The notes beneath the pieces were generated by a model, which made no database searches, was not told the origin of the DNA, and saw only the letters and a program-made list of their open reading frames with translations. From a methanogenic archaeon mixed culture ISO4-G1 (GTDB lineage: Archaea > Thermoplasmatota > Thermoplasmata > Methanomassiliicoccales > Methanomethylophilaceae), in NCBI GenBank assembly GCA_001563305.1, contig CP013703.1:310001-374000 (forward strand): a DNA stretch of 64,000 bases, read 5' to 3'. Numbering within the stretch: position 1 is the stretch's first letter; the number at the start of each line of letters is the position of its first letter. This document shows, in pieces, positions 42,995 through 63,394 of the stretch. Both the position numbers and the translations under genes were made by a program.

Positions 42995-43067
42995 GCTCCT
43001 GTGGTGTAGCGGCCAATCATGAAGCCCTCTCGAGGCTTCAACACGGGTTCAAATCCCGTCGGGAGCA
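42995..43067 (+). tRNA. tRNA-Glu (CTC), likely integration site of the island
   Basis: GCTCCTG pairs with CGGGAGC. The anticodon arm is AAGCC-CTCTCGA-GGCTT with anticodon CTC, and the T arm is CACGG-GTTCAAATC-like GGGTTCAAATCCC. The discriminator is A and CCA is not encoded. A tyrosine recombinase gene lies directly downstream, the usual layout where an element has inserted at the 3' end of a tRNA gene. The second att copy is not in the window. Confidence 0.9.
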
Positions 43068-43199
43068 CTATTTTTTCCTCACCCAGATTCGAAAGTAGTA
43101 CTCCCCCCAGGTTGCACTACTCTTCCGAGCCCGTACTTCCGAAAAGGGGGTAATTTTGTTGGTGTTTTGGCGTGTTTCAGATCTCGGTTACCGACTCCA

Positions 43200-44147
43200 T
43201 CACCACTTCCCTTTGACATTCTTGATGCTCTTAGTTATGCGTCTTCTGCAATAGTAGGTGTTGGTGGTCTTCGTGGACGCGTGGCCCATGAGGTTCGACA
43301 CATCCTGCTCCTCGGCGTCGTTGTCGAGGTAATGCTGTCCGAAGGCTCTCCTGCAGTCGCGGAGCTCGAACTTCTGTCCGATGTCCCTCTCGACGTAGGT
43401 CTTGAGCTTCCTGATGGTGTTGCTCGACATCGCGCCGTGGTCGCCGTTCATGCTACAGAACAGCGCCGTCACGGTGGACGGGTGGACGCCGTGGGCGATG
43501 AGGAAGTCCTCCCTCGCCTTGAGGTAGTCCTTGACCACGGGGATGATCTCGTCGGGTATGGGAACGGGCCTCGGGTCGCCGTAGCTGTCCTCGCCCTTCA
43601 CATGCTTGAACCAGATCACCCACTCTTCCTGGTCGAGGTCATTCATCTCCGCGAGACGGAGCTCCTTGTTCCTCGCTCCGGTGCCACAGTACAGCAGGAC
43701 CAGGACGTAAGGCCTGATGGCCCTGAAGTCCTTGTGGTCCATGGTGTTGTACCTGTGGAGGATCAGCTTGTACGTGGCATCGGGAAGCGGCGGGAGCCTG
43801 CACTCCTTCTTGTCCACCGGCTTGAGGCCGGGGTACTTCGCGAGGCACTTCTGCACGCAGGTGTTGTCGCACATGGTGCAGAGCTGCCCCATCACCGCTA
43901 TGTCGTGGTTGACATCCGATGCGGACACTTTCTTGCCCTTGCGGTACACTACGAGCTCCTTGATGTCCTCGGGGAGCATCTTGGCGGGGGACATGGTCGT
44001 GACCCTGCCCTCCTCCTTGAGCCTGAGCATATCGCGTTCGATCCTCCTGAGCCTGGCCTTGGTCGTCTTGTATGTCTTTTCCGCTATGCAGCCGCGTTTC
44101 GCTTCCATCAGCTCAGCGGCCCTATCTCCAAACGGATTCGCAACCAT
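43200..44147 (-). CDS. Tyrosine recombinase / integrase
   Basis: The 315-residue protein has an N-terminal SAM-like domain (TYKTTKARLRRIERDMLRLK) with extra cysteines (CTMCDNTCVQKC), then the catalytic core. The first Arg is in GTGARNKELRLAEM and the Lys in FKHVKGED. The box II motif is LRDCRRAFG, where the usual HxxR is replaced by RDxRR as in several archaeal integrases. The second His is in MGHASTKTT and the nucleophile Tyr in TYYCRRR. It should integrate the island at tRNA-Glu. Confidence 0.9.
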   Translation of the reverse strand: MVANPFGDRAAELMEAKRGCIAEKTYKTTKARLRRIERDMLRLKEEGRVTTMSPAKMLPEDIKELVVYRKGKKVSASDVNHDIAVMGQLCTMCDNTCVQKCLAKYPGLKPVDKKECRLPPLPDATYKLILHRYNTMDHKDFRAIRPYVLVLLYCGTGARNKELRLAEMNDLDQEEWVIWFKHVKGEDSYGDPRPVPIPDEIIPVVKDYLKAREDFLIAHGVHPSTVTALFCSMNGDHGAMSSNTIRKLKTYVERDIGQKFELRDCRRAFGQHYLDNDAEEQDVSNLMGHASTKTTNTYYCRRRITKSIKNVKGKW

Positions 44148-45163: not shown

Positions 45164-45459
45164 TGCAGGACTGGCAGATTGCTGTCCTCAACAGCGAGAA
45201 CATCAGGATCGACCAGGACCAGTACACCGGATACAGGCTGGTCATCAGGAAGACTGACGAGAAGAACAGGATGACGATCCCCACCATCGTGGCGACCGTG
45301 AGGAAGTCGAAGAGGAAACCGGTCATCATGTGCCCGAACGAACCGTTCAGGGGGATGTTCGCTGACAGGAAGGAAGTGCTGGACATCCTCATGTCCACTC
45401 CCGAGTACGAGGAATACACCATCTGGATGGCAGAGGCCAAGATGAACGGGGTGATCTGA
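45163..45459 (+). CDS. Island protein of unknown function
   Basis: The 98-residue protein (MQDWQIAVLNSENIRIDQDQ at the start, PNEPFRGMFADRKEVLDILM later) shows alternating strands and a C-terminal helix but no catalytic motif. The ATG overlaps the stop of the upstream gene, and the stop overlaps the next ATG (TGATG), so translation is coupled. The sequence style suggests a bacterial plasmid-type protein; the function is not known. Confidence 0.65.
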   Translation: MQDWQIAVLNSENIRIDQDQYTGYRLVIRKTDEKNRMTIPTIVATVRKSKRKPVIMCPNEPFRGMFADRKEVLDILMSTPEYEEYTIWMAEAKMNGVI

Positions 45460-46178
45460 TGGGGAACAGAGCTGTCATCACCACCGAAGAGAGCTTCGAG
45501 AAGAATTCAGGACTCGGAGTGTACCTCCACTGGAACGGTGGAAGGGATTCTGTCCAGGGATTCCTCGAGTATTGCAGACTGAGGTCCTTCAGGAAGCCTG
45601 AGAGCGACGACTACGGATGGGCAAGGCTCTGCCAGGTCGCGGCGAACTTCCTTGGAGCAGACGGATGTTCCATTGGAGTCGACGACATCTCCAGACTGGA
45701 CATGGACAACGGCGACAACGGGGTGTACCTGATCAAGGACTGGAAGATCGTCGGAAGGAGATTCTTCGACGGTGAAGAACAGGACTGTTACTCGCTACAC
45801 GACTTCCTCCACGCATTGGATGAAAGCCAGCCGGAACAGCAGCAGCTGGGGAACGACATGATCGACTGCCTCCTGTACCATGACAAGGTAATCTCCGACA
45901 TCTCTTGGAACTACCAGTACGAGATCAACAAGAGGGCCGAGGAGGGAAGGAACGTGGAAGGATTCCATGTTGGAAGATATTACGCCTGCAATGAGAAGGA
46001 TCCGAAGACCTTCGTGAAGATCACGGACAAGACCAGGATGGAACTTATCCTGGAGATCGAGGGAGAGGAGAAGAAACTTCCGAGGTTCATATGGAAGGAC
46101 GGTTCCGAGTCCACCATACTCGAGGACGAGTACGGAAGGGCGAGGACACTCGACTCATCGAAGGAGGTGATCGCATGA
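45459..46178 (+). CDS. Plasmid-type protein beginning MGNRAVIT
   Basis: The 239-residue protein begins MGNRAVITTEESFEKNSGLG followed by YLHWNGGRDSVQGFLEYC. I recall this opening from hypothetical proteins of bacterial conjugative elements and phages, where it is common. Other stretches are GVYLIKDWKIVGRRFFDG and DFLHALDESQPEQQQLGNDM. No biochemical role is known to me. It lies in the middle of four overlapping genes, and its ATG overlaps the previous stop. Confidence 0.72.
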   Translation: MGNRAVITTEESFEKNSGLGVYLHWNGGRDSVQGFLEYCRLRSFRKPESDDYGWARLCQVAANFLGADGCSIGVDDISRLDMDNGDNGVYLIKDWKIVGRRFFDGEEQDCYSLHDFLHALDESQPEQQQLGNDMIDCLLYHDKVISDISWNYQYEINKRAEEGRNVEGFHVGRYYACNEKDPKTFVKITDKTRMELILEIEGEEKKLPRFIWKDGSESTILEDEYGRARTLDSSKEVIA

Positions 46179-46474
46179 GCCTCTTCGAGACCGGACCTGT
46201 GGTGACCACGCCCGGGATCAGGAACATGATGGGTCTCGGACCACAGGCGATAGACACCATCCAGAAGTGCCTTGACAGACACTGCCAGGGCGACTGGGGA
46301 GACCTATGCGACGACGACAAACAGCTCAACCAGGACTCCCTGGATGAGGAGAAGGAGAAGGGATTCACCTACGATAGTCTCTTCAGCTCGTACGAGACCG
46401 ACTTCGGGAAGATCTATATCATAACCGAGTGCGACAGGTCGGTGACCACCATCCTGACACCGGAGGAGTATTGA
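46175..46474 (+). CDS. Plasmid-related small protein of a widespread mobile-element family
   Basis: The 99-residue protein has the pattern GLGPQAIDTIQKCLDRHCQG, WGDLCDDDKQLNQDSL and KIYIITECDRSVTTILTPEE. I recognise this order from a family of hypothetical proteins on bacterial plasmids and integrative elements, with an E-x-DRS-x-TT signature near the end. The ribosome-binding site AAGGAGGTGA is perfect, and the ATG overlaps the stop of the previous gene (ATGA). A hairpin terminator follows the stop. Confidence 0.72.
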   Translation: MSLFETGPVVTTPGIRNMMGLGPQAIDTIQKCLDRHCQGDWGDLCDDDKQLNQDSLDEEKEKGFTYDSLFSSYETDFGKIYIITECDRSVTTILTPEEY

Positions 46475-46482
46475 ACTCCGGA

Positions 46483-46503
46483 GGGGCCGAAAGGCCCCAT
46501 TTT
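46483..46503 (+). terminator. Hairpin terminator after the four-gene block
   Basis: GGGGCC (46483-46488), loop GAAA and GGCCCC (46493-46498) form a perfect stem, followed by ATTTTTG. It closes the overlapping block 44834-46474. Confidence 0.8.
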
Positions 46504-46515
46504 TGTGGTGATAAC

Positions 46516-47079
46516 ATGAACGCTGCAAAGCAATTGACACTGTTCGCATTCGACGATGTTCCTGTATCGAACAAACCGAAATGGCTGGAGGACTACGACG
46601 GCACTCACAAAGGGATCTACAAGATGGATGCCGAGGCTCTGGTGGAGGATCTGAACAGGATGCCCTCAGGAAAGGGCTCATGGCTGAGATGCCTGGAGGT
46701 CGACCATTCCCGTTCCTACGAATCCAGATTCAAGGACTGGGACGCCTGCATATGGATGCAGAGAGGGATCGGTATAAAGAAGATGGTCAAGTCCACAGGA
46801 GAGGTGATGGACTGCATCGATCCGCATCCGTACAAATGGCATTACCTCGATGGGAAGCAGATACGCGAATGGATCTACGAGCCACTGAAAGAAGTATGGA
46901 TGGACGGCGATACACTGCACATCGGGCTCGATTCGGGAGAGTATCTCGCCGAAATACGTCCCAATGAGGAGATCGACAGGTACGACCTCCAACCTTACAA
47001 CCCAACGATGGATTTAGAGCACTTCGCGATCGAATGCTACAGGCACCATCTTCCGAGAGAGATGATGGCTTGGAGATAG
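46516..47079 (+). CDS. Island protein of unknown function
   Basis: The 187-residue protein starts MNAAKQLTLFAFDDVPVSNK and has a Trp/Tyr-rich middle (DWDACIWMQRGIGIKKMVKS, YKWHYLDGKQIREWIYEPLK). It is acidic and lacks a membrane segment. GGTGATAAC upstream of ATG 46516 is a good ribosome-binding site. It follows the terminator at 46483, so it is probably a separate transcript. I know no family. Confidence 0.65.
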   Translation: MNAAKQLTLFAFDDVPVSNKPKWLEDYDGTHKGIYKMDAEALVEDLNRMPSGKGSWLRCLEVDHSRSYESRFKDWDACIWMQRGIGIKKMVKSTGEVMDCIDPHPYKWHYLDGKQIREWIYEPLKEVWMDGDTLHIGLDSGEYLAEIRPNEEIDRYDLQPYNPTMDLEHFAIECYRHHLPREMMAWR

Positions 47080-47130
47080 GAGTATGTCTATGGAACGCCG
47101 GCGCTGAGGCCGTTCTCCAGGAATATATCC

Positions 47131-47448
47131 GTGGAAGATGCGAAGAAGATCAGCCTGAAAGGGGATATCCCCAACGGGATGGTGCCAAACGAGCAGTTCA
47201 ACCAGATATGCGAATGTGCAGAGAAGATTGGCATCCAATTGCAGCTGTCTTACGATGTCCCTGCACTGAAGAACCTAGCAATGTATCCAGTGGAAGAGAG
47301 CTGCAAGACATGTATGAGGAAGAAATCTCACAACAAGGACAAAGATTCCGAATGCTGGAAGAACAACGGACAGGTGTGTTGTAACAATTACATGTGGGAT
47401 AGAAAAAATAAAACAAAAACCTCAAATCATCTATGTCAAAAAATGTAA
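47131..47448 (+). CDS. Short cysteine-rich protein of unknown function
   Basis: The 105-residue frame from GTG 47131 holds many cysteines near the end (EESCKTCMRKKSHNK, ECWKNNGQVCCNNY), which may bind zinc, and a helical N-terminus (NEQFNQICECAEKIGIQLQL). Start is uncertain because no ATG fits and the ribosome-binding site is weak. Composition differs from neighbours (more A/T). It may be the last gene of the block or a remnant. Confidence 0.5.
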   Translation: MEDAKKISLKGDIPNGMVPNEQFNQICECAEKIGIQLQLSYDVPALKNLAMYPVEESCKTCMRKKSHNKDKDSECWKNNGQVCCNNYMWDRKNKTKTSNHLCQKM

Positions 47449-47493: not shown

Positions 47494-48537
47494 TTATCTA
47501 TAATCATACCGATCGGATTCTGGATCACGGGTTTGATAATCCTCGATGGCACCAGCATTCTTTAAGGCATCAAGCATGCTGAGACCGACGTTATAAACGA
47601 CGTTGATAGCTACTGAATTACCAAAAAGACGATAGGCGGAGGTATCGGAAACGTTCGCATCAAAATCCCTTGGGAAGCCCTGCATTCTGGAAAATTCCCT
47701 CGGAGTCAATCTGCGGATGTCCTCGGAATTAATGGGCGTATGGATTCCTGTCGTGGGCGTGCGATCACCAACGAGTTTCTGATAAACCAGATTCCTCTCA
47801 CGACCCATGCCACCTGTCATAAGGGTGTTCCCAGGTCCCGAGGTGTCTAGAATAGCATAACTGTAACCTCTGCCCTTCTTCTTTTGTTCGACCTTATGAT
47901 TCTTGAGGCAATCCAGATAACCCTGTGATAGATAGTACCTGTTATCCACATGTTTTTCCAGAATGTAATCTATAGTACTGTGCTCGTCCCTATCCAATGG
48001 TTTGGGATAATCAAATGAACATATCCCCAAATCATCACGGAAACCAACTATGTAGACCCTCTCCCTCCTTTGAGGGACATTGAAGTCATAAGCGTTGAGA
48101 ACCTTAGGTTCGGGTACGAAGTAGTGGGCTTTCCTCAGACGGTCGAGAATATAATTCATGGTCTCTCCGCCCTTATGGGAACAGAGACCTTTAACATTCT
48201 CCAACAGAAATGCCTTGGGCTTGGTTTCCTCGATGATATCGGCAAGATAGTCAAACAGCTTGCCACGATCGTCATCAAATCCCAATCTGTTTCCAGCCAT
48301 GGAGAAGGCCTGACATGGGAATCCGGCAAGAAGAATGTCATAGGGCTCTGGCAGGACCTCATCACATTTTATGGTGGTAATATCACCGAGTGGATCATCT
48401 CCAAAATAATCCATATAGACCTTAGAGGCGACGGGGTCTTTCTCACAGGAATAGATGCATTCGCCCCCCAAGTCCTCGAATGCGATACGCATACCGCCAA
48501 CACCGGCGAAAAGGTCAATAAACTGGAAACAAGACAC
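47494..48537 (-). CDS. dcm: DNA cytosine-C5 methyltransferase
   Basis: The 347-residue protein has the C5-methyltransferase motifs in order: FIDLFAGVGG (I, residues 6-15), the catalytic loop GFPCQAFSM with Cys75 (IV), ENVKGL (VI, residues 113-118), QRRERVYIVGF (VIII) and FGNSVAINV (X). The target-recognition part between VIII and X is short, so the site cannot be read. It is the last gene of a defence-type operon with GHKL and Z1 proteins and would mark self DNA. Confidence 0.95.
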   Translation of the reverse strand: MSCFQFIDLFAGVGGMRIAFEDLGGECIYSCEKDPVASKVYMDYFGDDPLGDITTIKCDEVLPEPYDILLAGFPCQAFSMAGNRLGFDDDRGKLFDYLADIIEETKPKAFLLENVKGLCSHKGGETMNYILDRLRKAHYFVPEPKVLNAYDFNVPQRRERVYIVGFRDDLGICSFDYPKPLDRDEHSTIDYILEKHVDNRYYLSQGYLDCLKNHKVEQKKKGRGYSYAILDTSGPGNTLMTGGMGRERNLVYQKLVGDRTPTTGIHTPINSEDIRRLTPREFSRMQGFPRDFDANVSDTSAYRLFGNSVAINVVYNVGLSMLDALKNAGAIEDYQTRDPESDRYDYR

Positions 48538-48546
48538 TGGTTTACC

Positions 48547-49470
48547 TCATGTGGTGCTATTATATGATGATACCGGCGGAATGGAAACAGGGTGCATGCT
48601 CGACAAATTAATCGAATAACTGATTTTCTCAATGCATTCTGGTTTAACACCGTCTTTGAAATAATCTAGGATATTGGGAAAATTCTCGTCAATCCTATAA
48701 TCCAAAACCTCTAAGAGATGATACGACTTTGTTCTCAAACTCGTGTCCCTAATGTTCAACTTCCTGAGGTTCCGGTCGAGAATCTTGGGGTCAAATCCTT
48801 TGTTGATCAACTCCGAACATATGGAATCGATGGAATGGGGGCCAGAAGGATCCTCTTCAAATCTACAAAAGCAGAGATAATCCGCCTTATTCGCCTGGAA
48901 CTCCTCTGACATCGTGACTGTAGAACTATTGCGAGCGATAGTGGATTTGACCTCGAAATAGAGGCCTGATTTCTTGGAAGAAATGTCACAAACACTAGAA
49001 TTGGGGCCATCCCAACTCGGATCATAACCAAGGTCAATCAATCTACCGAGAGTATGGAGTTCCGCAATTACTTGATACGTGGAGGGGGAAACAGTAGCAT
49101 TACCCATCATTTCCTTCCACTTATCAAACCATTGTGAGGGATCACGACCAAGTTCATCACGATCGGTTTCCAACAATTTGATACAAATAGCAGTAAACTC
49201 CGAGGTGCAGTTCGGCACAGAACATGATAGAACGAAACCATTGGAGAATCCCGTTTTTGTTAGGACGGTTCTCGACTCTAGAACCATACCGGAACATGAT
49301 TCCCTAAAGGGCTGTGAGAAGTCGGAACGGACGAAAATGCCGTAATCAACATCTGATTTATAGTACAGATAATCTCCAGGGTATCCATCTATCGGAGCAG
49401 ATGGGCCGACCTGATCCTTGCCGAAGATATCGAAATAATCAATGATTTTATCGAAACAATCCACCATCAT
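48547..49470 (-). CDS. PD-(D/E)XK-motif protein of the DUF4420 (PF14390) type
   Basis: The 307-residue protein shows a restriction-endonuclease-like core: AELHTLGRLIDLGYDPSWDG (first acidic residue), VCDISSKKSGLYFEVKSTIA (Asp and Glu-x-Lys). This D...ExK pattern is the PD-(D/E)XK active site. The fold and the preceding long N-terminal part match the PD-(D/E)XK-motif family seen in Z1/GHKL restriction loci. It lies 10 bases upstream of the methyltransferase gene and overlaps its upstream neighbour by 4 bases. It probably cuts unmodified DNA. Confidence 0.82.
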   Translation of the reverse strand: MMVDCFDKIIDYFDIFGKDQVGPSAPIDGYPGDYLYYKSDVDYGIFVRSDFSQPFRESCSGMVLESRTVLTKTGFSNGFVLSCSVPNCTSEFTAICIKLLETDRDELGRDPSQWFDKWKEMMGNATVSPSTYQVIAELHTLGRLIDLGYDPSWDGPNSSVCDISSKKSGLYFEVKSTIARNSSTVTMSEEFQANKADYLCFCRFEEDPSGPHSIDSICSELINKGFDPKILDRNLRKLNIRDTSLRTKSYHLLEVLDYRIDENFPNILDYFKDGVKPECIEKISYSINLSSMHPVSIPPVSSYNSTT

Positions 49471-50207
49471 TCCACCTCATCAAACAAATGTAAAACATAG
49501 GTGTCCAGACCCTCGCTGTTCAATTCGGGTTCTAAGGTCTCCATCCGGACAAGGTTTAGGGCAAGTGCACGACTAAGAAGATTGCCCGGTTTCCTGCCGT
49601 CCATCAAACGATTGTGATATTCGAGCATAATTGCTCTGTAAATCTCGATGGGATAGCCATCGCTACCTGCACGCTCAACCAATTGTGAAATGTCATCAGA
49701 TTGATTCTTGGACAGTATGTCCTTGGTATGGGCTATTGGATTTATGCCATCATCCTGAAGGGAGATGAAGAAGTACCACCATAGCATGGCTGGATAAATC
49801 CTACGGGAATTAGCAAAGAATCTATCATCATGTGGGAGATCAAAACCACCTTTACTGAACCTTTCTATGATAATGTCTGGAATCACATTCATACTCAAAA
49901 ACACCCAGAATTCATCATCCGACGCATCTCTGGAGGTGAAACCGTATTGAGAGAGAGTGACGAAAATGGCTTCAGCCATATCGAGATCGACACCATATTC
50001 CCAAGAAACTGTGGTATATGACTTGGATTCCTTCTTTGCCATACAATCCCTGAATGTTGAAACAAGGCGCTCACGAATTGCCATATATTCGTTGGGCGGG
50101 GAGGGATTGCGAAATCTAGGGATCATTTCCCTGAAGAAATCCCTATCGGATCTCATCCTGCCCAGTAGCGCCTGGGCATCCATCTTACTCATTGTTTCCC
50201 ATTGCAT
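49467..50207 (-). CDS. Defence-locus protein of unknown function (possibly DUF6339-like)
   Basis: The 246-residue helical protein (MSKMDAQALLGRMRSDRDFF at the start, FFISLQDDGINPIAHTKDIL in the middle) has no catalytic motif. Its size, position and helical character fit the DUF6339-type proteins that accompany Z1 loci, but I cannot confirm that. Its stop overlaps the ATG of the PD-(D/E)XK gene (ATGA), and its own start abuts the previous stop, so it is part of one operon. Confidence 0.6.
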   Translation of the reverse strand: MQWETMSKMDAQALLGRMRSDRDFFREMIPRFRNPSPPNEYMAIRERLVSTFRDCMAKKESKSYTTVSWEYGVDLDMAEAIFVTLSQYGFTSRDASDDEFWVFLSMNVIPDIIIERFSKGGFDLPHDDRFFANSRRIYPAMLWWYFFISLQDDGINPIAHTKDILSKNQSDDISQLVERAGSDGYPIEIYRAIMLEYHNRLMDGRKPGNLLSRALALNLVRMETLEPELNSEGLDTYVLHLFDEVE

Positions 50208-51167
50208 TCAAACACCACCCAATAAACGACGAAGATTATACGCAATATCAGTCGGGTCCATGAGCGGGTCCTCCAACTTTTTTTCCAGGATATAGAGAAT
50301 GTAGTCACAGACGCTTCCATCTGAGATTCCATCAATGTTCCCATTGACCATATCTGACCAGATCTCACCATCGCTACGAAGACGAAGGATTACCTGTGCG
50401 ATGGCAGAACTGTAGATTTCGACCTTCAGAGATTGCTTCGCACGTTCTTTGGAATTAGTGCCCCAAACCTCCTTGAATCCCGGATAAGCCGAATTGATGC
50501 TAATGTGTACAGTTTCTAAGAAGCTATCGGAACGAGGGTCCTTCCAAGAGGTTTCAAGACGCCACAAGGGATCCGATGGGGATCTCCTTACGACAACGGT
50601 GGGGAATTCTGGAGAGCGATCATCGATGTAGACCTTGAATTCGAACAGTGAACCAAAAACGAAACCCTCGTTATTGGTGAAATATGGTATTTGCGGAGAT
50701 AAGCTCCTTTCCTTCAGATAGAGGATGCATCTGATAGAGAACGAACCGCGATAGACACCACGAGGCAAATTAATCGAGAAAACGAAGGACTCGGCCCTAC
50801 TGGATTGAGTCAATGATATAGGGGAAGGATGTACCGTTCTGGTGTTGGACTCCTTGGAAGCGATGACTATGGCCACACCGATGGAGGAATCTGGATTGGC
50901 GAGACCCTTATCCAGATCAAAAAGGCGAGATATATTGTCAAGAGAGAACCTAACCCCGATAATCAGGTCATGCGCACCCGGATCCCAATCCGAGCCCTTT
51001 CCTGGCAATTCGATGACTTCGTTATCCACATCATTTTTCCGGGGGATTCCGATAGGCTTGCCATCAAAACCTGAGTAGTGAAAAGTGAGCAATGGCTTCC
51101 CATCAAAAATCTGTTCCAGAAGCTCATTGGTCAGAGTATTGAAGAATGGAAATGTGATGTTACTCAG
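50208..51167 (-). CDS. Defence-locus protein, unknown, non-ATG start
   Basis: About 319 residues, rich in beta-type stretches (SFSIRCILYLKERSLSPQIP, FVFGSLFEFKVYIDDRSPEF, TVVVRRSPSDPLWRLETSWK), suggesting a beta-sandwich scaffold. No motif is visible. Upstream, the frame overlaps the GHKL gene, and no ATG, GTG or TTG lies at the junction. CTG at 51167 overlaps the GHKL stop as CTGA, the only coupling-type start. ATG at 51302 would overlap 138 bases. The start therefore stays open. Confidence 0.55.
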   Translation of the reverse strand: MSNITFPFFNTLTNELLEQIFDGKPLLTFHYSGFDGKPIGIPRKNDVDNEVIELPGKGSDWDPGAHDLIIGVRFSLDNISRLFDLDKGLANPDSSIGVAIVIASKESNTRTVHPSPISLTQSSRAESFVFSINLPRGVYRGSFSIRCILYLKERSLSPQIPYFTNNEGFVFGSLFEFKVYIDDRSPEFPTVVVRRSPSDPLWRLETSWKDPRSDSFLETVHISINSAYPGFKEVWGTNSKERAKQSLKVEIYSSAIAQVILRLRSDGEIWSDMVNGNIDGISDGSVCDYILYILEKKLEDPLMDPTDIAYNLRRLLGGV

Positions 51168-53131
51168 ACTACAACCCCCTTGTAGCTGACGGTCAGTACA
51201 GGCAAGACCATCTCTGAAATTGGACGGTCGACTACGATTGAGATCTCCACCTCTGTGTTGAACCTGCCAGAACTGATGTTGATCTGAGATTCGGATACCC
51301 AACTCAGAGAGAAACGCTCACCGTTGCTGGAACCCGACCTTGAAAGTGTTATCTCACAAGGTTTTTTCGTCCCATCCTCCTCAGTGAAGGAAAGGATGGT
51401 CAACGACCTGAACTTGATGGGGAACGCGGTCCCGATCTTCTCCCTCCACTGATCCGAATAAAGTATGGTGGAACCGGCTGAGGCCCCCAACGACAATGTA
51501 GCCATTTTCGAATTTCTGAATATCATTTTTCCAGTATGGATCACACCATCCGTAGTCTGAGAGCTCGAGCTGGGTTCAAAGAATACTCCCGCCCTCGGAC
51601 GCTTCGGCCCTGGTCTTGGAGGTTTGGGGCCATCGCCACCGCCAGAACGCTTCGTGGAAACATAGGATCCGCCCTCGGGAAAGAGTCTCTCCGCAACAAA
51701 GCGACCTTCGGTAGAACGAAGTCCTGCTACCCGGTCATTATCGGGGGATCTCAATTGGGATTGCAGCTTCTCTCTGATTTGCCTCTTAATGTTTTTAACC
51801 GGATTGATGGAGGTGGCCATCGTATCCTCCCAACCGCCATGGTTGGAAAGCTCGGTGGAGCGGACGTACTTTTCCAAGGACATCTCCGAACCGTCCTTCA
51901 TGGAAACCAGGGTATCTGCATCGGGATTCAGTCTGAATACGGCCAGGAGATAACGGTCGGAATTGATCTCTTGTATCCTCTCGAACTCTGGATCATTGAA
52001 GTTGAGAAACATACCAGGGCTGCGCGTATAGGTTACGATGGGTCTGTTGCCATCCTTTGAGTTGTTCTCGACATTGCACAAGACGTAGGGATCGTTGAAA
52101 AAGATGCCATCTTTGAAATCGTCGTAGGAATAGATGCCCCAAGCAAGCCAACCATAGAAATTGTTCTGATTGCCCTTGGGGATCGGTAGGACATTCTTGT
52201 TGGAAACGTCGAACGAATCATTGTAGAGATTCCTGAAGAGCCTGAAGAGGTTGTAATCCAGAGAGACCTTACTCGAATCGACGGTACATGTCAATCTTGG
52301 TTTACTGGAGACATCGTTGTCTAGTCTCGGGGAGAACCATTTCTGTACGAAGAAGTCAATGCATTTTGGAACGGAGGCCAACCAAGGCTTGTTCGGATCC
52401 AATTTGGAGGTCTCCCTCACATCCATGAGCAATGACTGTAAATCGACAGAGGGCATGATTATGAGGGTGCCGGTCTCCTCATTACCGAAAGGCAGCAGGT
52501 TGAAGCAATCCAGAATCGATACGATAGTCGATTCATCGTAGATCGGACCAATCTCATCCTCATCTAAGAAATCGCCGCCCCACATACTGAAACCAGACCA
52601 TCTGGTGATACCGACGTCGATCTCGTAGCCCCTGTGATTGACAAATATGGCATTCATTCTTGATTCAAAACCAGAGGGGGTATGAACACGGGAATAGAAG
52701 ATGACGAAACCTGAGCCTTGACGATAGAAAACGCTCTTGCCCTTGCCCCACATACCGCCCTGTGAACTGCTGTTCTTACCGGAACGACTGAACTCGGTAA
52801 GGAGGCCTCTATAATTGGCATTCTCATCACGTACGTCACCATTGAGACCAACAGTACCGGAATCGCGGATTGAAATGAAATTAGAAGGGTTGTCATTGAA
52901 CACCTGGGATAGCTCTGGAAAGATGGTGGAGATGGCAGGGATGTCTAACTGTCCGACGACGAAATCCATCTGAACAGATGAGGATCCAGGTTTGGCAGCA
53001 TCGAGGCTGTTCTGAACGGACTCACGAACAAGGGCCTCCAGCCTGGGAGTCTTCTTGTCCTCCTGTGCATTAATGATGCCTTCTGTGGATCCGTCTAGGA
53101 ATCTCTTACGTGCATGAATGACATTGATCAT
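51164..53131 (-). CDS. GHKL (MutL/MORC-like) ATPase
   Basis: The 655-residue protein carries the GHKL ATP site: ESVQNSLDA (N-box, Glu37, Asn41, Asp44), SIRDSGTVGL (G1, residues 88-96) and GGMWGKGKSVFY (G2/lid, residues 125-136). The C-terminal about 250 residues are unique to this type of protein. Such ATPases occur with Z1 proteins and methyltransferases in prokaryotic MORC-like restriction loci described by Iyer, Abhiman and Aravind (2008). It follows the Z1 gene with an ATGA overlap. Confidence 0.88.
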   Translation of the reverse strand: MINVIHARKRFLDGSTEGIINAQEDKKTPRLEALVRESVQNSLDAAKPGSSSVQMDFVVGQLDIPAISTIFPELSQVFNDNPSNFISIRDSGTVGLNGDVRDENANYRGLLTEFSRSGKNSSSQGGMWGKGKSVFYRQGSGFVIFYSRVHTPSGFESRMNAIFVNHRGYEIDVGITRWSGFSMWGGDFLDEDEIGPIYDESTIVSILDCFNLLPFGNEETGTLIIMPSVDLQSLLMDVRETSKLDPNKPWLASVPKCIDFFVQKWFSPRLDNDVSSKPRLTCTVDSSKVSLDYNLFRLFRNLYNDSFDVSNKNVLPIPKGNQNNFYGWLAWGIYSYDDFKDGIFFNDPYVLCNVENNSKDGNRPIVTYTRSPGMFLNFNDPEFERIQEINSDRYLLAVFRLNPDADTLVSMKDGSEMSLEKYVRSTELSNHGGWEDTMATSINPVKNIKRQIREKLQSQLRSPDNDRVAGLRSTEGRFVAERLFPEGGSYVSTKRSGGGDGPKPPRPGPKRPRAGVFFEPSSSSQTTDGVIHTGKMIFRNSKMATLSLGASAGSTILYSDQWREKIGTAFPIKFRSLTILSFTEEDGTKKPCEITLSRSGSSNGERFSLSWVSESQINISSGRFNTEVEISIVVDRPISEMVLPVLTVSYKGVVV

Positions 53132-55932
53132 ATTGACCTCATGTGAACATAGGGACTTCTTTCGAAATCATAATCTGATTTGACATCTCTGGGTAGGAAT
53201 ATGGTGGGGGACACAATGTCCTCAACGTAACCGTTCTTTCCATCCCGGCCGATAGTGGTAATGACCAGGGTTGCAGTTCTTTGCATATCCAACTGTTTGC
53301 GGATTCTGCAACGTTCATCCGGGCTGCCCTTGAGAAGGGATTCTAAACGTGCAGGTTCATCCTTAAGGATCTCTTTACACCTTTCAATATCCAGATCGAG
53401 GAGGAGGCTCTTCTTGTCCCTTACGGTTTTGAAGGTTAGGATATCTGCATTCATGTCAATGTAATCCCTCTGGACCATATTGATGTTGTATTTCCCACAA
53501 TATGTATGTGTGGCCTCGATTAAATCCGCGGATTTCCTCTCGGTTCCATATAGAACGATGTTGCAATCGACGAGTGTGGAATCATCATATTTGGATAGCC
53601 AATCGAGGAAGGAACCGAAGGAGTTTATGTTGCTCTCCTCCCCGTCCTTGGGGCGATCCAATGAATTGAGATATTCGGCTACGAGTTTGAAATCGACATT
53701 ACGGAAGATTAAGCTACTGCCAACGGGGGAAAGCTCAGGAGACTTGCCGCATGATTCTAATAGTTCTTCCGTGGAAGTTAAGTTGGAACGAAGACTATCA
53801 ACATTATTGAAGAAACGTGAGAAATACTTGTCCTTTGCAACAAAACCACCATTCTTATACGTCTTGACTGACGCTTTGGATTTGGATGGGGAGGTCAGTG
53901 ATTTCAACATACCTGATGCGGGGACATCCCTTATCCTGGCATAGTATTCCTTCGGATCAAGGCCCTCGGATTGATAACGTCTAATTTCTCTGAAAAGGGA
54001 TTCATTTATGATAGAAAGATCACAGAATGTTTTGTAGGTGACGGTGTCCATCCAGATCCTGGGAAGCAATTCATAGCCTACTCTAAAACCGAACCATCTG
54101 GCCATCTGGAGTAACGTATCCGCAGTTGTAGTCTTCCTAATGTAGTAAGTTGAGACGAGCCCCTCCAATGTCAAACCCCTCGACAGGGTCTGACCACCGA
54201 TGACGATGAATGCAGGCGTCTGCTTCAACACTTCAGGATGATCCTTTTTAGTGGGGTATATGATGCGACTGGTATAGTCATAATCGAGAACGCCTAACGA
54301 AATATTCTTCCCCTTACCATTATCGACACAATCATGGATTGTATCCGGAGTGTAGATGTGCCTCTTGTCCGAACCTTCGCGAACCTCCCTTATGTGTGTG
54401 AGACCGTTCGTTACGAGCATATCGATGATTGGACTAATGGTCTGATAATCGGGATAGTCCCTAATGTCCAGTCCATCGATCCCATCTCCATAATCGGGGA
54501 GTATGCTGAGGAATTTGGATTTTGTCAATGATTCTGTCTGGATTTTAAAAACATCAGAACAACGTTGGATCAGATCGGAACGTTCGTTGAGAATGTAATC
54601 CATGACGGCCTCATTCATTTTCTTATGCTCTTCTGTCTTAACATCGACATTTATGAGCATTGACACAGGTTTGCCGAATTGCCAATGTTTTAGGATGGCA
54701 ACACAGCAATAGAACCAGGCAATGGAGTCTTTCAGAGAACTTGGAAGAACAATCGGCACATTGGATTTCTTCTTGCTAACAATCTTGGCGATATCATCAT
54801 CGATGATGGTCACATGGGTGCCTAGACCATCATCCTGGCCATCGCCATAGAACTGTTTAAGGCCGAGATACAAAGAAGATGGAGTAAGGGCTGTGATGAA
54901 ATCTTTAGGATACAAACCCTTGCTCTCATTCAGAAGGTTGGCATAGGGTGTTGCCGTATACCCGATATAATTTACGGAACCGAAGGCATTAGCATACGGG
55001 ATTCCCTCCGGACTCTTGTTTTGAACTAGACAAAGGATCAAATCATTGATTCTTGACCTATCAACTGAGTCAACCTTGCTGCTATCGACGCTAGCCTGAT
55101 CGGATTCGTCATCGATGACAAGGAGATGGACTCTTTCCTTCTGAGGTATCTTATTGAGGCAGGAGATTACATTGCTCAACTGCGTGACATTCTTCTCAGC
55201 ATGATAGATGTAACAATCGCCAAACTTCAGGCAGATATCGTTCTTTGTTAGGAAATCTTTCGGACCTTTACGAGGATTAAGATAATGCCATCTGAAACGA
55301 AGGGGGTCTTCAGGATCGTCTTCGGAAGGGCGAAGGTCCCCCAACATTCTGAAGAGGGTCTGATCCATGAGATTATTGGTAAGACCAGTAAGAACAACAA
55401 AGAAATTCCATCCATTATCAGCGGCCATGGATATGAGGGCCTCCATATTGGCAGTCTTACCCGATTGAACATTACCAATGACTGCGCCACATACTGGTTC
55501 CCCTGATTTTGTGGATTTTTTCATCATCTCAATAATGTTTTTAGATGATGCTTTAAGATCTTCAATGTTGGAGAAATGCGAGTCCTCTAAGAGTGCCCTA
55601 TAATGGCCCCAGGCGGTGGATGGGTCATCATCGATGAAGCATTTGCTCCGTTCACCTTTGAAAAGTGTATTGATGTCAACTTCATAGTTAATAAACTCAA
55701 CCCTTTTCTGATAATCTATGCTTTCTTTTAGATATCTGACCAGAAGATCTTTCCCAACTCTTTTGATAAGAGCATCCAAAGACCCGTTAGCAAGTTGATT
55801 CTCTAAAGGAACATTGGAATTGATACTGGTAAGTACGGTATCATAATCGCAATTGAACAACTGGTTCAGAGTATCCAAGGCATTTTTGATGATAGGGATA
55901 TTAGCTTTTTCATCATCTGTATAGTTAGACAA
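53128..55932 (-). CDS. Z1-domain superfamily II ATPase
   Basis: The 934-residue protein has a Walker A motif GNVQSGKT at residues 153-160, a Walker B-like VIDDESDQASVD, SVNYIGYTATPYAN (motif III), and the Z1 block ending IGGQTLSRGLTLEGLVSTYY and TLLQMARWFGFRVGY with an arginine finger. The Z1 domain is known from restriction-like loci with GHKL ATPases. It is probably a DNA translocase that drives recognition or cleavage. It begins the minus-strand operon and diverges from vsr. Confidence 0.92.
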   Translation of the reverse strand: MSNYTDDEKANIPIIKNALDTLNQLFNCDYDTVLTSINSNVPLENQLANGSLDALIKRVGKDLLVRYLKESIDYQKRVEFINYEVDINTLFKGERSKCFIDDDPSTAWGHYRALLEDSHFSNIEDLKASSKNIIEMMKKSTKSGEPVCGAVIGNVQSGKTANMEALISMAADNGWNFFVVLTGLTNNLMDQTLFRMLGDLRPSEDDPEDPLRFRWHYLNPRKGPKDFLTKNDICLKFGDCYIYHAEKNVTQLSNVISCLNKIPQKERVHLLVIDDESDQASVDSSKVDSVDRSRINDLILCLVQNKSPEGIPYANAFGSVNYIGYTATPYANLLNESKGLYPKDFITALTPSSLYLGLKQFYGDGQDDGLGTHVTIIDDDIAKIVSKKKSNVPIVLPSSLKDSIAWFYCCVAILKHWQFGKPVSMLINVDVKTEEHKKMNEAVMDYILNERSDLIQRCSDVFKIQTESLTKSKFLSILPDYGDGIDGLDIRDYPDYQTISPIIDMLVTNGLTHIREVREGSDKRHIYTPDTIHDCVDNGKGKNISLGVLDYDYTSRIIYPTKKDHPEVLKQTPAFIVIGGQTLSRGLTLEGLVSTYYIRKTTTADTLLQMARWFGFRVGYELLPRIWMDTVTYKTFCDLSIINESLFREIRRYQSEGLDPKEYYARIRDVPASGMLKSLTSPSKSKASVKTYKNGGFVAKDKYFSRFFNNVDSLRSNLTSTEELLESCGKSPELSPVGSSLIFRNVDFKLVAEYLNSLDRPKDGEESNINSFGSFLDWLSKYDDSTLVDCNIVLYGTERKSADLIEATHTYCGKYNINMVQRDYIDMNADILTFKTVRDKKSLLLDLDIERCKEILKDEPARLESLLKGSPDERCRIRKQLDMQRTATLVITTIGRDGKNGYVEDIVSPTIFLPRDVKSDYDFERSPYVHMRSI

Positions 55933-56027
55933 GTAGACACCGGTGTGGGTGCATCAACCTATAGATATTTTAATTAACATAGGAGGGCGGAGAAAAAAAC
56001 TACTGTATCAGGGAGAATGACATTTTT

Positions 56028-56447
56028 ATGAACAAAAAGACACCGGAGGCCATTAATGAAGTCACATCCAGAGTGATGAAGTCCAATAAAGGACGGGATA
56101 CTGGACCAGAAAAGACAATAAGGGCAATACTGCGCGAGATCGGTTATCCGGGTTACAGAATGAATTGGAAAAAGGCACCAGGAAAACCAGATATAGCTTA
56201 TCCCGGAAGAAAAATAGCAATTTTCGTTAATGGATGCTTCTGGCATCGCTGTCCCACTTGCAATCTCCCTCTTCCTAAAACACACACAGATTTCTGGCAA
56301 AAAAAATTCCAAGACAATGTTGAACGTGACAGAAGGAACCTCGAGGAATTGTCATCCATGGGGTGGATGGTATTTACAGTGTGGGAATGCGAACTGAAAG
56401 ACCTCGAATCTTTGAAGTTAAGGCTTCAGGAATTTATGGATCAATGA
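56028..56447 (+). CDS. vsr: Very-short-patch repair (Vsr) endonuclease
   Basis: The 139-residue protein matches Vsr, which nicks at T/G mismatches formed by deamination of 5-methylcytosine. The core has VTSRVMKSNKGRDTGPEKTI, then GKPDIAYPG with the metal-binding Asp55, and FVNGCFWHRCPTC with the zinc/His cluster at residues 67-78, and FTVWECEL near the end. It lies divergent from the Z1 gene, 95 bases away, as often seen beside a cytosine methyltransferase. Confidence 0.93.
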   Translation: MNKKTPEAINEVTSRVMKSNKGRDTGPEKTIRAILREIGYPGYRMNWKKAPGKPDIAYPGRKIAIFVNGCFWHRCPTCNLPLPKTHTDFWQKKFQDNVERDRRNLEELSSMGWMVFTVWECELKDLESLKLRLQEFMDQ

Positions 56448-56920: not shown

Positions 56921-57598
56921 TCAGCGTTTCCCTTTGAAATTCCTAGGGCCGATGAGGAGTACCTTGGAGTCATCGGACCACGGCACTACCTCGTATCCGA
57001 GATCGGTGAAGGCCTCTGCTGCTTTGTGTTTCTTCCAGAAACAGTTCCCTTCGGATTCAAGGGTCAGACATATTATGGACAGTTCAGCCAGACCGCTGTC
57101 GTAAGCGTTCTTTTTAATCAGGCTGTCGATCCTGCCTACAAGCTCGTTGTCCTTGACATTCTGCTTCTTAGAATTCTTCTTGACAGTCTTGTTCATAGCA
57201 TTGGATACCTGATTGGAGAGTGTCGCAATGTTGTTCAGGAGATTATAGAGTCTGATGGCATCTTTCTTGTAGCTCGAACCCTCGTGGATCCTGAGGTCAT
57301 GGATGAAGTAATTGCGGTCCTTGACCGCCTGTTCCATTCCAGTGAAGATGATGTCGCCTTCGTCGTAAACGCTGCGGAGCTGCTTCACATTGATGCCGAA
57401 GGGTTTATTATCGAAATCGGCAAGGAACTCCGTGAGTTCCTCGTTGGATAACTTGCCGAGTTCGGGGATGAGCAACCTCATTCTGTCGATGAGGTTCAGC
57501 AGCCTGTAGTTCATACATCCGATACCGTAAAGCATGCTGTCGGCACTTACAGTTCCGGGGGAATCCGAGGCATTGAGCCAATCGTAAACTTCTTTCAT
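56921..57598 (-). CDS. HEPN-type RNase-like protein
   Basis: The 225-residue helical protein holds RNYFIHDL with Arg95-x4-His100, the R-x4-6-H signature of HEPN-type RNases. A conserved acidic/basic stretch precedes it (FTGMEQAVKDRNYF), as in HEPN toxins and Abi proteins. The second part is rich in Asn and Lys (MNKTVKKNSKKQNVKDNELV), possibly RNA-binding. It faces a CARF-winged-helix gene across a 65-base divergent promoter. Candidate toxin of a nucleotide-sensing or toxin-antitoxin pair; there is no proof of RNase activity. Confidence 0.68.
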   Translation of the reverse strand: MKEVYDWLNASDSPGTVSADSMLYGIGCMNYRLLNLIDRMRLLIPELGKLSNEELTEFLADFDNKPFGINVKQLRSVYDEGDIIFTGMEQAVKDRNYFIHDLRIHEGSSYKKDAIRLYNLLNNIATLSNQVSNAMNKTVKKNSKKQNVKDNELVGRIDSLIKKNAYDSGLAELSIICLTLESEGNCFWKKHKAAEAFTDLGYEVVPWSDDSKVLLIGPRNFKGKR

Positions 57599-57663
57599 GG
57601 GTATCAGATGGCCTTACCGATATATGTCAAACTTTATTAATAATTAAAATTATTCTTTTAATA

Positions 57664-58335
57664 ATGTCCTTCGATATTCACTTCTATAATATCGGCCAGA
57701 CTGCTGATACAGCGTATCAGGTGCTAAGATCCGACATGAAGATAAACAAGATGTATCTTCTTAACAATTTCGAACCGGCATACGTAAAGATAGAGGAAGA
57801 GATCACGAAAAAATTGAACGAAGTAGGAGTGAAGGACGTAAACAAACTGCCCATCGAGATACATGATTTCGACAACATCTACAAGGCCGTGATGGAAACG
57901 GCCAGGAAAGAGATGAAGGAGCACAACGGGAACGTGCGGTTCCATTTCAACATCACCATGGGCACGAGCATTGTGGTCAGTGCGGTGAGCTGCGCCGCAT
58001 ACACACTCGATGCGGACCTATACTACATACTGGAAGCCAAATACTCCAAGAAGCAGGAGGAAGAGCTCATTCAGATACCCTTGGACAACATATCTGAAGT
58101 CGAAAAGCTGAAGGGCCGTAAGAAGGTCCTCGAGACCTTCATGCAGTTCAAGACGAATGATAAACTGACGATAGAGGAGATGAGGTCCATCAACGGACCG
58201 AACAAACCAGAGCTGTCCGGACCCAACCTGTCTCGGCGTACGAGAGAGCTGCACAACATGGGTCTCATACAGAAGTCAGGCAGCAGCGAATGGTCGCTTA
58301 CAGATAAGGGCAGAAAAGCGATCAAGAGATTGTGA
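57664..58335 (+). CDS. CARF-domain protein with C-terminal winged helix
   Basis: The 223-residue protein begins MSFDIHFYNIGQTADTAYQV and has FHFNITMGTSIVVSAVSCAA at residues 94-113, a match to the CARF ligand-binding site (N-T-x-G-T pattern). Residues about 145-223 form a winged helix (LSRRTRELHNMGLIQKSGSS). Such CARF-HTH proteins sense cyclic oligoadenylates or related signals and control transcription in Csa3 or DUF6293-like groups. No cas gene or CRISPR array is near. It is divergent from the HEPN-like gene, so it may control it. Confidence 0.8.
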   Translation: MSFDIHFYNIGQTADTAYQVLRSDMKINKMYLLNNFEPAYVKIEEEITKKLNEVGVKDVNKLPIEIHDFDNIYKAVMETARKEMKEHNGNVRFHFNITMGTSIVVSAVSCAAYTLDADLYYILEAKYSKKQEEELIQIPLDNISEVEKLKGRKKVLETFMQFKTNDKLTIEEMRSINGPNKPELSGPNLSRRTRELHNMGLIQKSGSSEWSLTDKGRKAIKRL

Positions 58336-62172: not shown

Positions 62173-62690
62173 CTCGACCACATCCTCGGGAATAGTGCAC
62201 TGATGCGGCTGACGAACGACATCTCGGGATCGTTGCCGTTGTGGATCCTTATCCTGTAGTTGACGTCGTCGGGATAATCGGGGGACTGCTCCGCAGGCGT
62301 GAACAGATACGGCTTGTCCCTAACGTATTGAACCGCGACCTTGATGTTCTTCGTCGGGCTCCTGGGATTGCTGATGACCTTGTTAATGTAATTCTGCCTG
62401 TCCGATACAGTTGATTTTCCTTTGAAGATCCTGTCGAGATATCCCGGGGTGAGCTCCCTGACGACCGGCCCGGTAATTCCCTTGGAGCCGTAGATGTCCA
62501 CTAGCCCGTCGGGATAGGGTGCCTTGCAGCGACCCTTGCTCTTCGGCCCCATGCCCATTATCTTGGGATAGTTCTGGGGAATCATGTGATATGCTTTCCT
62601 GTTCGGATCGGGTTCGTACTTCGCGGGTTCCGCCACGTAGTGCTCGCTGTACTTCCCGTACATCACGGGATTGCGTGCCCTTCTGGTCAT
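62169..62690 (-). CDS. Protein with a domain shared with its downstream neighbour
   Basis: The 173-residue basic protein has an N-terminal part rich in Tyr, Lys and Pro (KYSEHYVAEPAKYEPDPNRK) and a C-terminal domain (STVSDRQNYINKVISNPR, YVRDKPYLFTPAEQ) that is copied in the next gene. ATG at 62690 overlaps the stop of the nucleotidyltransferase gene (ATGA). It is probably an accessory or partner of that protein. The fold is not recognised. Confidence 0.62.
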   Translation of the reverse strand: MTRRARNPVMYGKYSEHYVAEPAKYEPDPNRKAYHMIPQNYPKIMGMGPKSKGRCKAPYPDGLVDIYGSKGITGPVVRELTPGYLDRIFKGKSTVSDRQNYINKVISNPRSPTKNIKVAVQYVRDKPYLFTPAEQSPDYPDDVNYRIRIHNGNDPEMSFVSRISALFPRMWSR

Positions 62691-63094
62691 GGCGACACCT
62701 CCAGTTCGATGATGTCCTTGGAGAATACTGCCTCATGGTCCGTGACGAGGTCATGGATGGAGATGTATCCGCTGCGGTTCCTGAGATACCTGACTACTTC
62801 CTCCCTGGGCCATATCATAGCCGTGAACCAATTGGATGATCTGCATTCCATCTCCTTGTCCCTGAACTCCTTGGAATTCAGAGGGTACTTGGCCTCGAAC
62901 TCGATGCCGATGTCCAGGTCTCCCAGGGTATCCTTCTCGGGGTCGTTGACGTACGATCCGAAGACGACCGCCCTCTTGATCCTGTAGCAGAAGCTGTCGT
63001 TGGCGTTCACCTGGAGTATGCGTTCCTTCACACCGTCGAGGAGCCTGTCCGCGGTGCTACGCTTGATCCTTATATCCTTCCTGGAGGATGTCAT
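62687..63094 (-). CDS. Nucleotidyltransferase-fold protein
   Basis: The 135-residue protein contains VVFGSYVNDPEKDTLGDLDI, the G-S-x(n)-D-x-D motif of the minimal nucleotidyltransferase superfamily, with an intact pair of aspartates. A third carboxylate could be in IHDLVTDHEAVF. Similar small proteins act as toxins or antitoxins (MNT/HEPN, AbiE) by adding AMP or CMP to proteins or tRNA; no HEPN partner is adjacent. ATG at 63094 follows GGAGGTG. It starts a three-gene operon. Confidence 0.78.
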   Translation of the reverse strand: MTSSRKDIRIKRSTADRLLDGVKERILQVNANDSFCYRIKRAVVFGSYVNDPEKDTLGDLDIGIEFEAKYPLNSKEFRDKEMECRSSNWFTAMIWPREEVVRYLRNRSGYISIHDLVTDHEAVFSKDIIELEVSP

Positions 63095-63394
63095 CAGAGA
63101 CACCTCCAGCTGATGCTGTTGCTGATTGTCGTTGACATACTGTAACCTTCCTTTGTCCGGGGAATTGTTGAGAAGGTGCTCCCCGTCACCCGAAGGTCAT
63201 CCGGCACCGCCCTTTCGGGATCCTATGGTGCTGGAAACAGTGTCTTAGCCGATGTGCCTCTGGCAGTGATCGATTTACTTATGCTGATTTAGCATAAGAT
63301 ATGAAGTATATAAAGAATCGCTCAAAAACGATGCTTCCTAAGAGAAACTGAACAACCAGTAAAAACAAAATAATCTCCAACCAATTTCGAGACG
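63095..63394. other. Leader/intergenic region with shared regulatory motif
   Basis: This 300-base stretch between divergent genes holds the ribosome-binding site of the nucleotidyltransferase gene, the motif TGCTGATTTAGCATAAGAT (63282-63300) and a TATA box GTATATAAAG (63305-63314) for the plus-strand gene. GC-rich segments at 63150-63240 could fold into RNA hairpins, but I see no known RNA. Confidence 0.55.

Follow-up and report, generated by a model that had tools for sequence, protein, structure and literature searches.

CARF domains are nearly always studied as receptors of the products of Cas10, and what CARF regulators sense outside CRISPR is a question already raised for HFX_2341. The same question arises at the locus described here, where a gene for a CARF-winged-helix regulator lies divergently beside a gene for a probable HEPN RNase, and it is joined by a second, namely whether the regulator controls its neighbour. 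Both genes are in the window, the whole stretch of 64,000 nucleotides that was analysed (G000:C1:310001-374000), which belongs to a 1.59-Mb single-contig genome that is 98% complete, probably of a methanogen of the Methanomassiliicoccales type. The reading preferred here, with somewhat better than even confidence, is a CRISPR-independent two-gene switch carried on an integrative element, in which the CARF-winged-helix protein controls the HEPN RNase.

The probable HEPN RNase gene (225 aa; 56921-57598, reverse strand), recognised as an open reading frame with a motif conserved in relatives, and the CARF-winged-helix gene (223 aa; 57664-58335, forward strand) were found at the positions and on the strands given in the original prediction. 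They form a divergent pair with a common promoter region of 65 bp (57599-57663) between the two starts. That prediction had made conservation of the two genes as neighbours a test of the association, and complete pairs with the same layout and a near-constant gap are present in three genomes of the family (G000, G059 and contig C83 of G019, with gaps of 65, 64 and 65 bp, respectively), although the proteins differ strongly between them, with identities of 25-36%. Only these three pairs are complete; a fourth copy, in G022, is truncated by the contig end, with the HEPN gene beginning at contig base 74 and a putative divergent ATG 65 bp away, at the end of the contig. The G022 copy was the sole match in a scan of genome contigs for HEPN relatives. 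Members of the HEPN family are present in 5 of the 147 genomes of the order, and those in G018 and on contig C146 of G019 have no CARF neighbour, one of them carrying Tyr in place of the motif His. A weak class-level match in G189, which includes RNRFVH, was set aside as it has no CARF neighbour. Relatives of the HEPN protein were not found in plasmid, phage or IMG/VR searches, nor were relatives of the CARF protein in plasmid or viral searches, and a PDB sequence search with both queries returned nothing useful.

The product of the forward-strand gene is a Csa3-like CARF-winged-helix protein, with the CARF domain at approximately residues 1-140 and the winged helix at approximately residues 143-223, and sequence families and predicted fold agree on this fusion, as originally proposed. 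The protein matches Pfam HFX_2341_N above cut-off (E 3e-8) and PADLOC CARF3 along its length (E 2.7e-25), and includes a CARF ligand-loop motif, NITMGTS, of the N-x-T-x-G-T type at residues 96-102. In the AF2 model (13 relatives; mean pLDDT 88), strands alternate with helices and the C-terminus forms a winged helix. CARF proteins rank first in the Foldseek search with this model (E down to 5e-8), and the best full-length matches are to Csa3 (2wte, 6wxq and 6w11, with TM scores of 0.70, 0.68 and 0.65). CARF-winged-helix relatives were found in 17 of 102 genomes of the archaeal family, often with no HEPN neighbour. The closest CARF gene by sequence (39% identity), on contig C44 of G022, is not adjacent to a HEPN gene and was dropped as evidence because of its odd N-terminus, its unusual neighbours and a contig that is possibly chimeric.

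The 225 aa protein includes R95-N96-Y-F-I-H100, and the R-x4-H (RNYFIH) motif first noted in the window sequence is conserved in relatives, Arg and Asn being kept in all six aligned members of the HEPN family and His in five of the six. The HEPN signature is Rx4-6H with a polar residue after the Arg (PMC3710099), and the family fits it because R95, N96 and H100 are common to its members. RNxxxH is the top-conserved local feature among these members, which are 22-30% identical to the window protein. In the AF2 model (pLDDT 84), a helical bundle with a long helix is followed by a small winged-helix-like C-terminal domain (approximately residues 168-217). The motif fits the original description of the protein as HEPN RNase-like, for which the predicted fold and the family searches give weaker support. 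Foldseek gave no significant fold match in PDB or BFVD, with HepT and 1wwp matched only weakly (E ~3), and no Pfam, NCBIfam or PADLOC family names the window protein. Relatives match HEPN_RiboL-PSP (E 0.029) and HEPN_Cthe2314 (E 0.13) at the motif, below family thresholds. A comparison of profiles against archaeal RiboL-PSP HEPN proteins gave a match that is itself weak but that scores above all 60 block-shuffled decoys of one set and above 57 of the 60 of a second set, and the alignments are always centred on RNxxxH; LA2681 HEPN and a 380 aa RSxxxH protein, used as decoys, were without homology to the window HEPN. Matches of the HEPN family to PHROGs and PADLOC entries (e.g. Cas12d) were scattered over single members and were judged to be chance. 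The lack of a significant fold match or a named family would suit a helical partner or a DNA-binding protein that is no RNase, with RNxxxH being fortuitous, but this is unlikely, as RN..H is conserved above all other local features in such distant relatives, and the weak HEPN matches of relatives and profiles align exactly on RNxxxH. On these sequence features, the 225 aa protein is quite probably a HEPN protein.

The pair is cargo of an element of approximately 36 kb integrated at tRNA-Glu (42995-43068). A tyrosine integrase gene (43200-44147, reverse strand; PF00589, E 2.6e-16) adjoins the tRNA gene, and a probable attachment repeat of 21 bp (43054-43074) that begins in the 3′-end of tRNA-Glu recurs exactly ~36 kb away, at 79047-79067 in window-extended coordinates, beyond the window end. 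The GC content drops to 0.44-0.48 across approximately 46-58 kb. A cluster at 47494-56447 includes genes for a C5-cytosine DNA methyltransferase (Dcm; 47494-48537, reverse strand), a DUF4420 protein, two unknown proteins, a 655 aa protein with a weak PDC-M33A match (51164-53131, reverse strand), a Z1-domain helicase-like protein (53128-55932, reverse strand) and, adjoining these, a Vsr-type endonuclease (56028-56447, forward strand). This arrangement resembles defence clusters of a known, methylation-linked type that are related to MzaC/Z1 systems. The pair in G059 is also beside an integrase gene, which abuts tRNA-Ser and the product of which is 31% identical to the window integrase, and the genes flanking that pair are 66-88% identical to window positions 45177-47403. 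The integrases, tRNA sites and Dcm, DUF4420, Z1 and Vsr neighbours therefore mark the pair as defence-type cargo of integrative elements. A small protein encoded at 62687-63103, in the same element and 5 kb from the HEPN gene, has a weak match to NTP_transf_2.

CARF-winged-helix genes near toxin genes were also found elsewhere. In four genomes that have no Cas10 (G014, G068, G011 and G069), a gene for an LA2681-like HEPN protein (PF18733, E 1e-25 to 1e-44; motif RHHIIH or RHHIVH) is directly followed by a more distant CARF-winged-helix gene. These pairings and that of the window appear to be separate, since there is no profile similarity between the two HEPN proteins. A convergent gene for the 380 aa protein, with the motif RS(I/L)(I/L)(V/I)H, is nearby in G014, G011 and G089, and a PemK-like toxin gene is near the CARF gene in G056; a homologue with 50% identity to it is near another CARF gene, in G014. 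PemK/MazF-like toxin genes in L020 (2247-2648) and L024 (636-971) are divergent from nearby CARF-winged-helix genes, and L024 also includes a RloB-like gene downstream. In L016, L017 and L018, two adjacent CARF-winged-helix genes beside an Hsp70-like gene are conserved in three genomes.

All four copies of the promoter region of the window pair contain TATA-like octamers at approximately -28 to -33 for both genes. In the window, a palindrome (ATTAAAA-N6-TTTTAAT, 57643-57662) occupies -21 to -2 of the CARF start, or -45 to -64 as seen from the HEPN gene, and is a putative operator for the CARF-winged-helix protein. Two relatives have a palindrome of other bases at the same place (ATTCAA-N7-TTGAAT and ATTCAG-N7-CTGAAT), so that it is present in three of the four promoters with arms that co-vary between genomes; the G022 promoter has no clean palindrome. 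Palindrome tests on single genomes were not significant, and a joint positional test was matched by 0.0005 of dinucleotide-shuffled trials for three sequences and by 0.006 for all four.

The palindrome is downstream of the CARF TATA-like box and upstream of that of the HEPN gene. Self-repression is the direct reading for the CARF gene, because a protein on the palindrome would block its core promoter, and autoregulation via the palindrome is likely. Control of the HEPN gene by the CARF protein is likewise likely, and may be of either sign because the palindrome immediately precedes the HEPN core promoter. The original prediction that the CARF protein may hold the HEPN gene silent is supported as to the conserved divergent layout and the shared promoter with a likely operator; silencing itself would be one of two options, as the position of the palindrome allows positive as well as negative regulation. 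Palindromes are also found upstream of CARF genes lacking a HEPN partner, so the putative operator alone is no proof of HEPN control; such repeats suggest that CARF autoregulation may be general. Those before HEPN-less CARF genes in L007, L008, L010 and L022 are differing inverted repeats (outer CCAA...TTGG, inner TTTTA..TAAAA).

If the CARF protein were instead a global or element-level regulator of the HFX_2341 kind, the HEPN gene would be a target among many, or a neighbour without any relation to it, with the promoter shared for compactness. HFX_2341 and MM_0565 affect many genes (PMC11434293, PMC7465815), and CARF homologues in the family frequently occur with no HEPN neighbour. However, the divergent layout and gap length persist in highly diverged pairs, and CARF genes are linked to a further HEPN family too, making such a global or element-level role improbable.

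In the preferred two-gene switch, a dimer of the CARF-winged-helix protein would bind the palindrome that immediately precedes its start codon and repress its own gene, as is proposed for MM_0565, and the same protein would set HEPN expression from this site directly upstream of the HEPN core promoter. A nucleotide-like ligand made in infection or RNA damage would fill the CARF pocket and alter DNA binding, upon which the HEPN RNase would be made, RNA cleaved and the cell stalled. An antiviral or element-guarding role for the RNase is plausible.

The ligand of this switch can be narrowed by the absence of candidate synthases. The original prediction saw no type III CRISPR signal gene in the window, and Cas10 was not found in the rest of the genome either, with Cas10 palm domains detected in none of the 102 genomes of the family in searches that included positive controls. 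Around the pair no cas genes were recognised; across the genome as a whole, the search was for Cas10. The ligand is probably other than a cyclic oligoadenylate made by a host Cas10, and the findings suggest that the sensor family responds to some signal other than that of type III CRISPR. For HFX_2341, an unknown cyclase or DacZ has been proposed as the signal source (PMC11434293). The c-di-AMP idea taken from HFX_2341 was tested through DAC, which was not found in G000, G059, G022 or G019; mCpol, for which the control was weak, and SMODS were also not found in these four genomes. These negative results bear as well on the alternative in the original prediction, a CARF protein that may respond to signals from another host defence system.

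RNA cut by metal-independent HEPN RNases carries cyclic phosphate ends. By analogy with RtcR and tRNA halves, the CARF protein might sense 2′,3′-cyclic phosphate RNA ends from the HEPN RNase or from an invader nuclease and tune HEPN expression in a feedback that would require no dedicated synthase. RtcR demonstrates that CARF domains are able to read RNA ends (PMC7790460), no member of the tested cyclic-oligonucleotide synthase families turned up in the pair genomes, and repeated pairing with different RNases fits one common RNA-fragment ligand. The RtcR CARF is, however, a divergent branch, whereas the window protein resembles Csa3, a cA4 binder, and a feedback of this type is rather improbable. 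Cyclic oligoadenylates from a Cas10-like or other synthase of an invader, or from an unrecognised host cyclase, would suit the Csa3-like fold, as Csa3 is known to bind cA4 (PMC8699464), but are a very unlikely signal given that searches of the pair genomes yielded no mCpol, DAC or SMODS and that Cas10-bearing invaders would be rare in a family with Cas10 in 0/102 genomes.

Beyond the window pair, it can be tentatively proposed that the CARF-winged-helix proteins of this archaeal family are CRISPR-independent sensors of a non-Cas10 ligand that control unrelated RNase toxins (HEPN, LA2681-like HEPN and PemK), the ligand possibly being RNA fragments from the controlled RNases themselves. A family in which Cas10 is missing from all 102 genomes and CARF regulators occur in 17, several beside RNase genes, is a clean natural setting for CARF sensing outside CRISPR. 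The window pair is directly testable in vitro, because the module is compact, with two genes and a 65-bp promoter that has been mapped.

Several known systems share parts of this arrangement. Saccharolobus Csa3a (2wte, 6w11) has the same CARF domain and C-terminal winged helix along its whole length (TM 0.70), but is only ~12% identical to the window protein and regulates cas operons, whereas the window protein lacks nearby cas genes, comes from an archaeal family without Cas10 and would regulate the neighbouring HEPN gene. HFX_2341 regulators have the same N-terminal family and a winged helix and, like the window protein, occur where no Cas10 is known; HFX_2341 also works as a regulator in haloarchaea that are CRISPR-negative (PMC11434293). 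It differs in being a conserved global regulator, whereas the window protein is mobile-element cargo with a probable RNase, and diadenylate cyclase, its proposed possible signal source, was not found in the pair genomes. MM_0565, a CARF regulator of Methanosarcina mazei, has a preference for AT-rich DNA and binds the promoter of its own gene; it acts outside cas operons, affecting a casposon cas1-solo gene, and the available part of its report names no HEPN partner (PMC7465815).

On the effector side, HEPN_RiboL-PSP and HEPN_Cthe2314 have RNxxxH in a like helical context, matched weakly and centred on the motif; the window protein falls below their thresholds and has a long C-terminal helix and a winged-helix-like tail. 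The LA2681-like pairs also place an R-x4-H HEPN gene next to a CARF-winged-helix gene, but in tandem and not divergently, and the LA2681-like protein is longer, with an extra N-terminal part. HEPN-MNT (type VII) toxin-antitoxin systems have a nucleotidyltransferase antitoxin gene, which is not adjacent here, the neighbour being the CARF-winged-helix gene. Type III CRISPR ancillary effectors depend on a Cas10 signal source that is missing from the window genome. Csm6 and Csx1 combine a CARF sensor with a HEPN effector as the window pair does, but in one polypeptide with allosteric control, whereas the window pair consists of two genes, outside any type III CRISPR system, with control that would be transcriptional. 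The two-gene CARF switch for an RNase is read here as a new form built from known parts.
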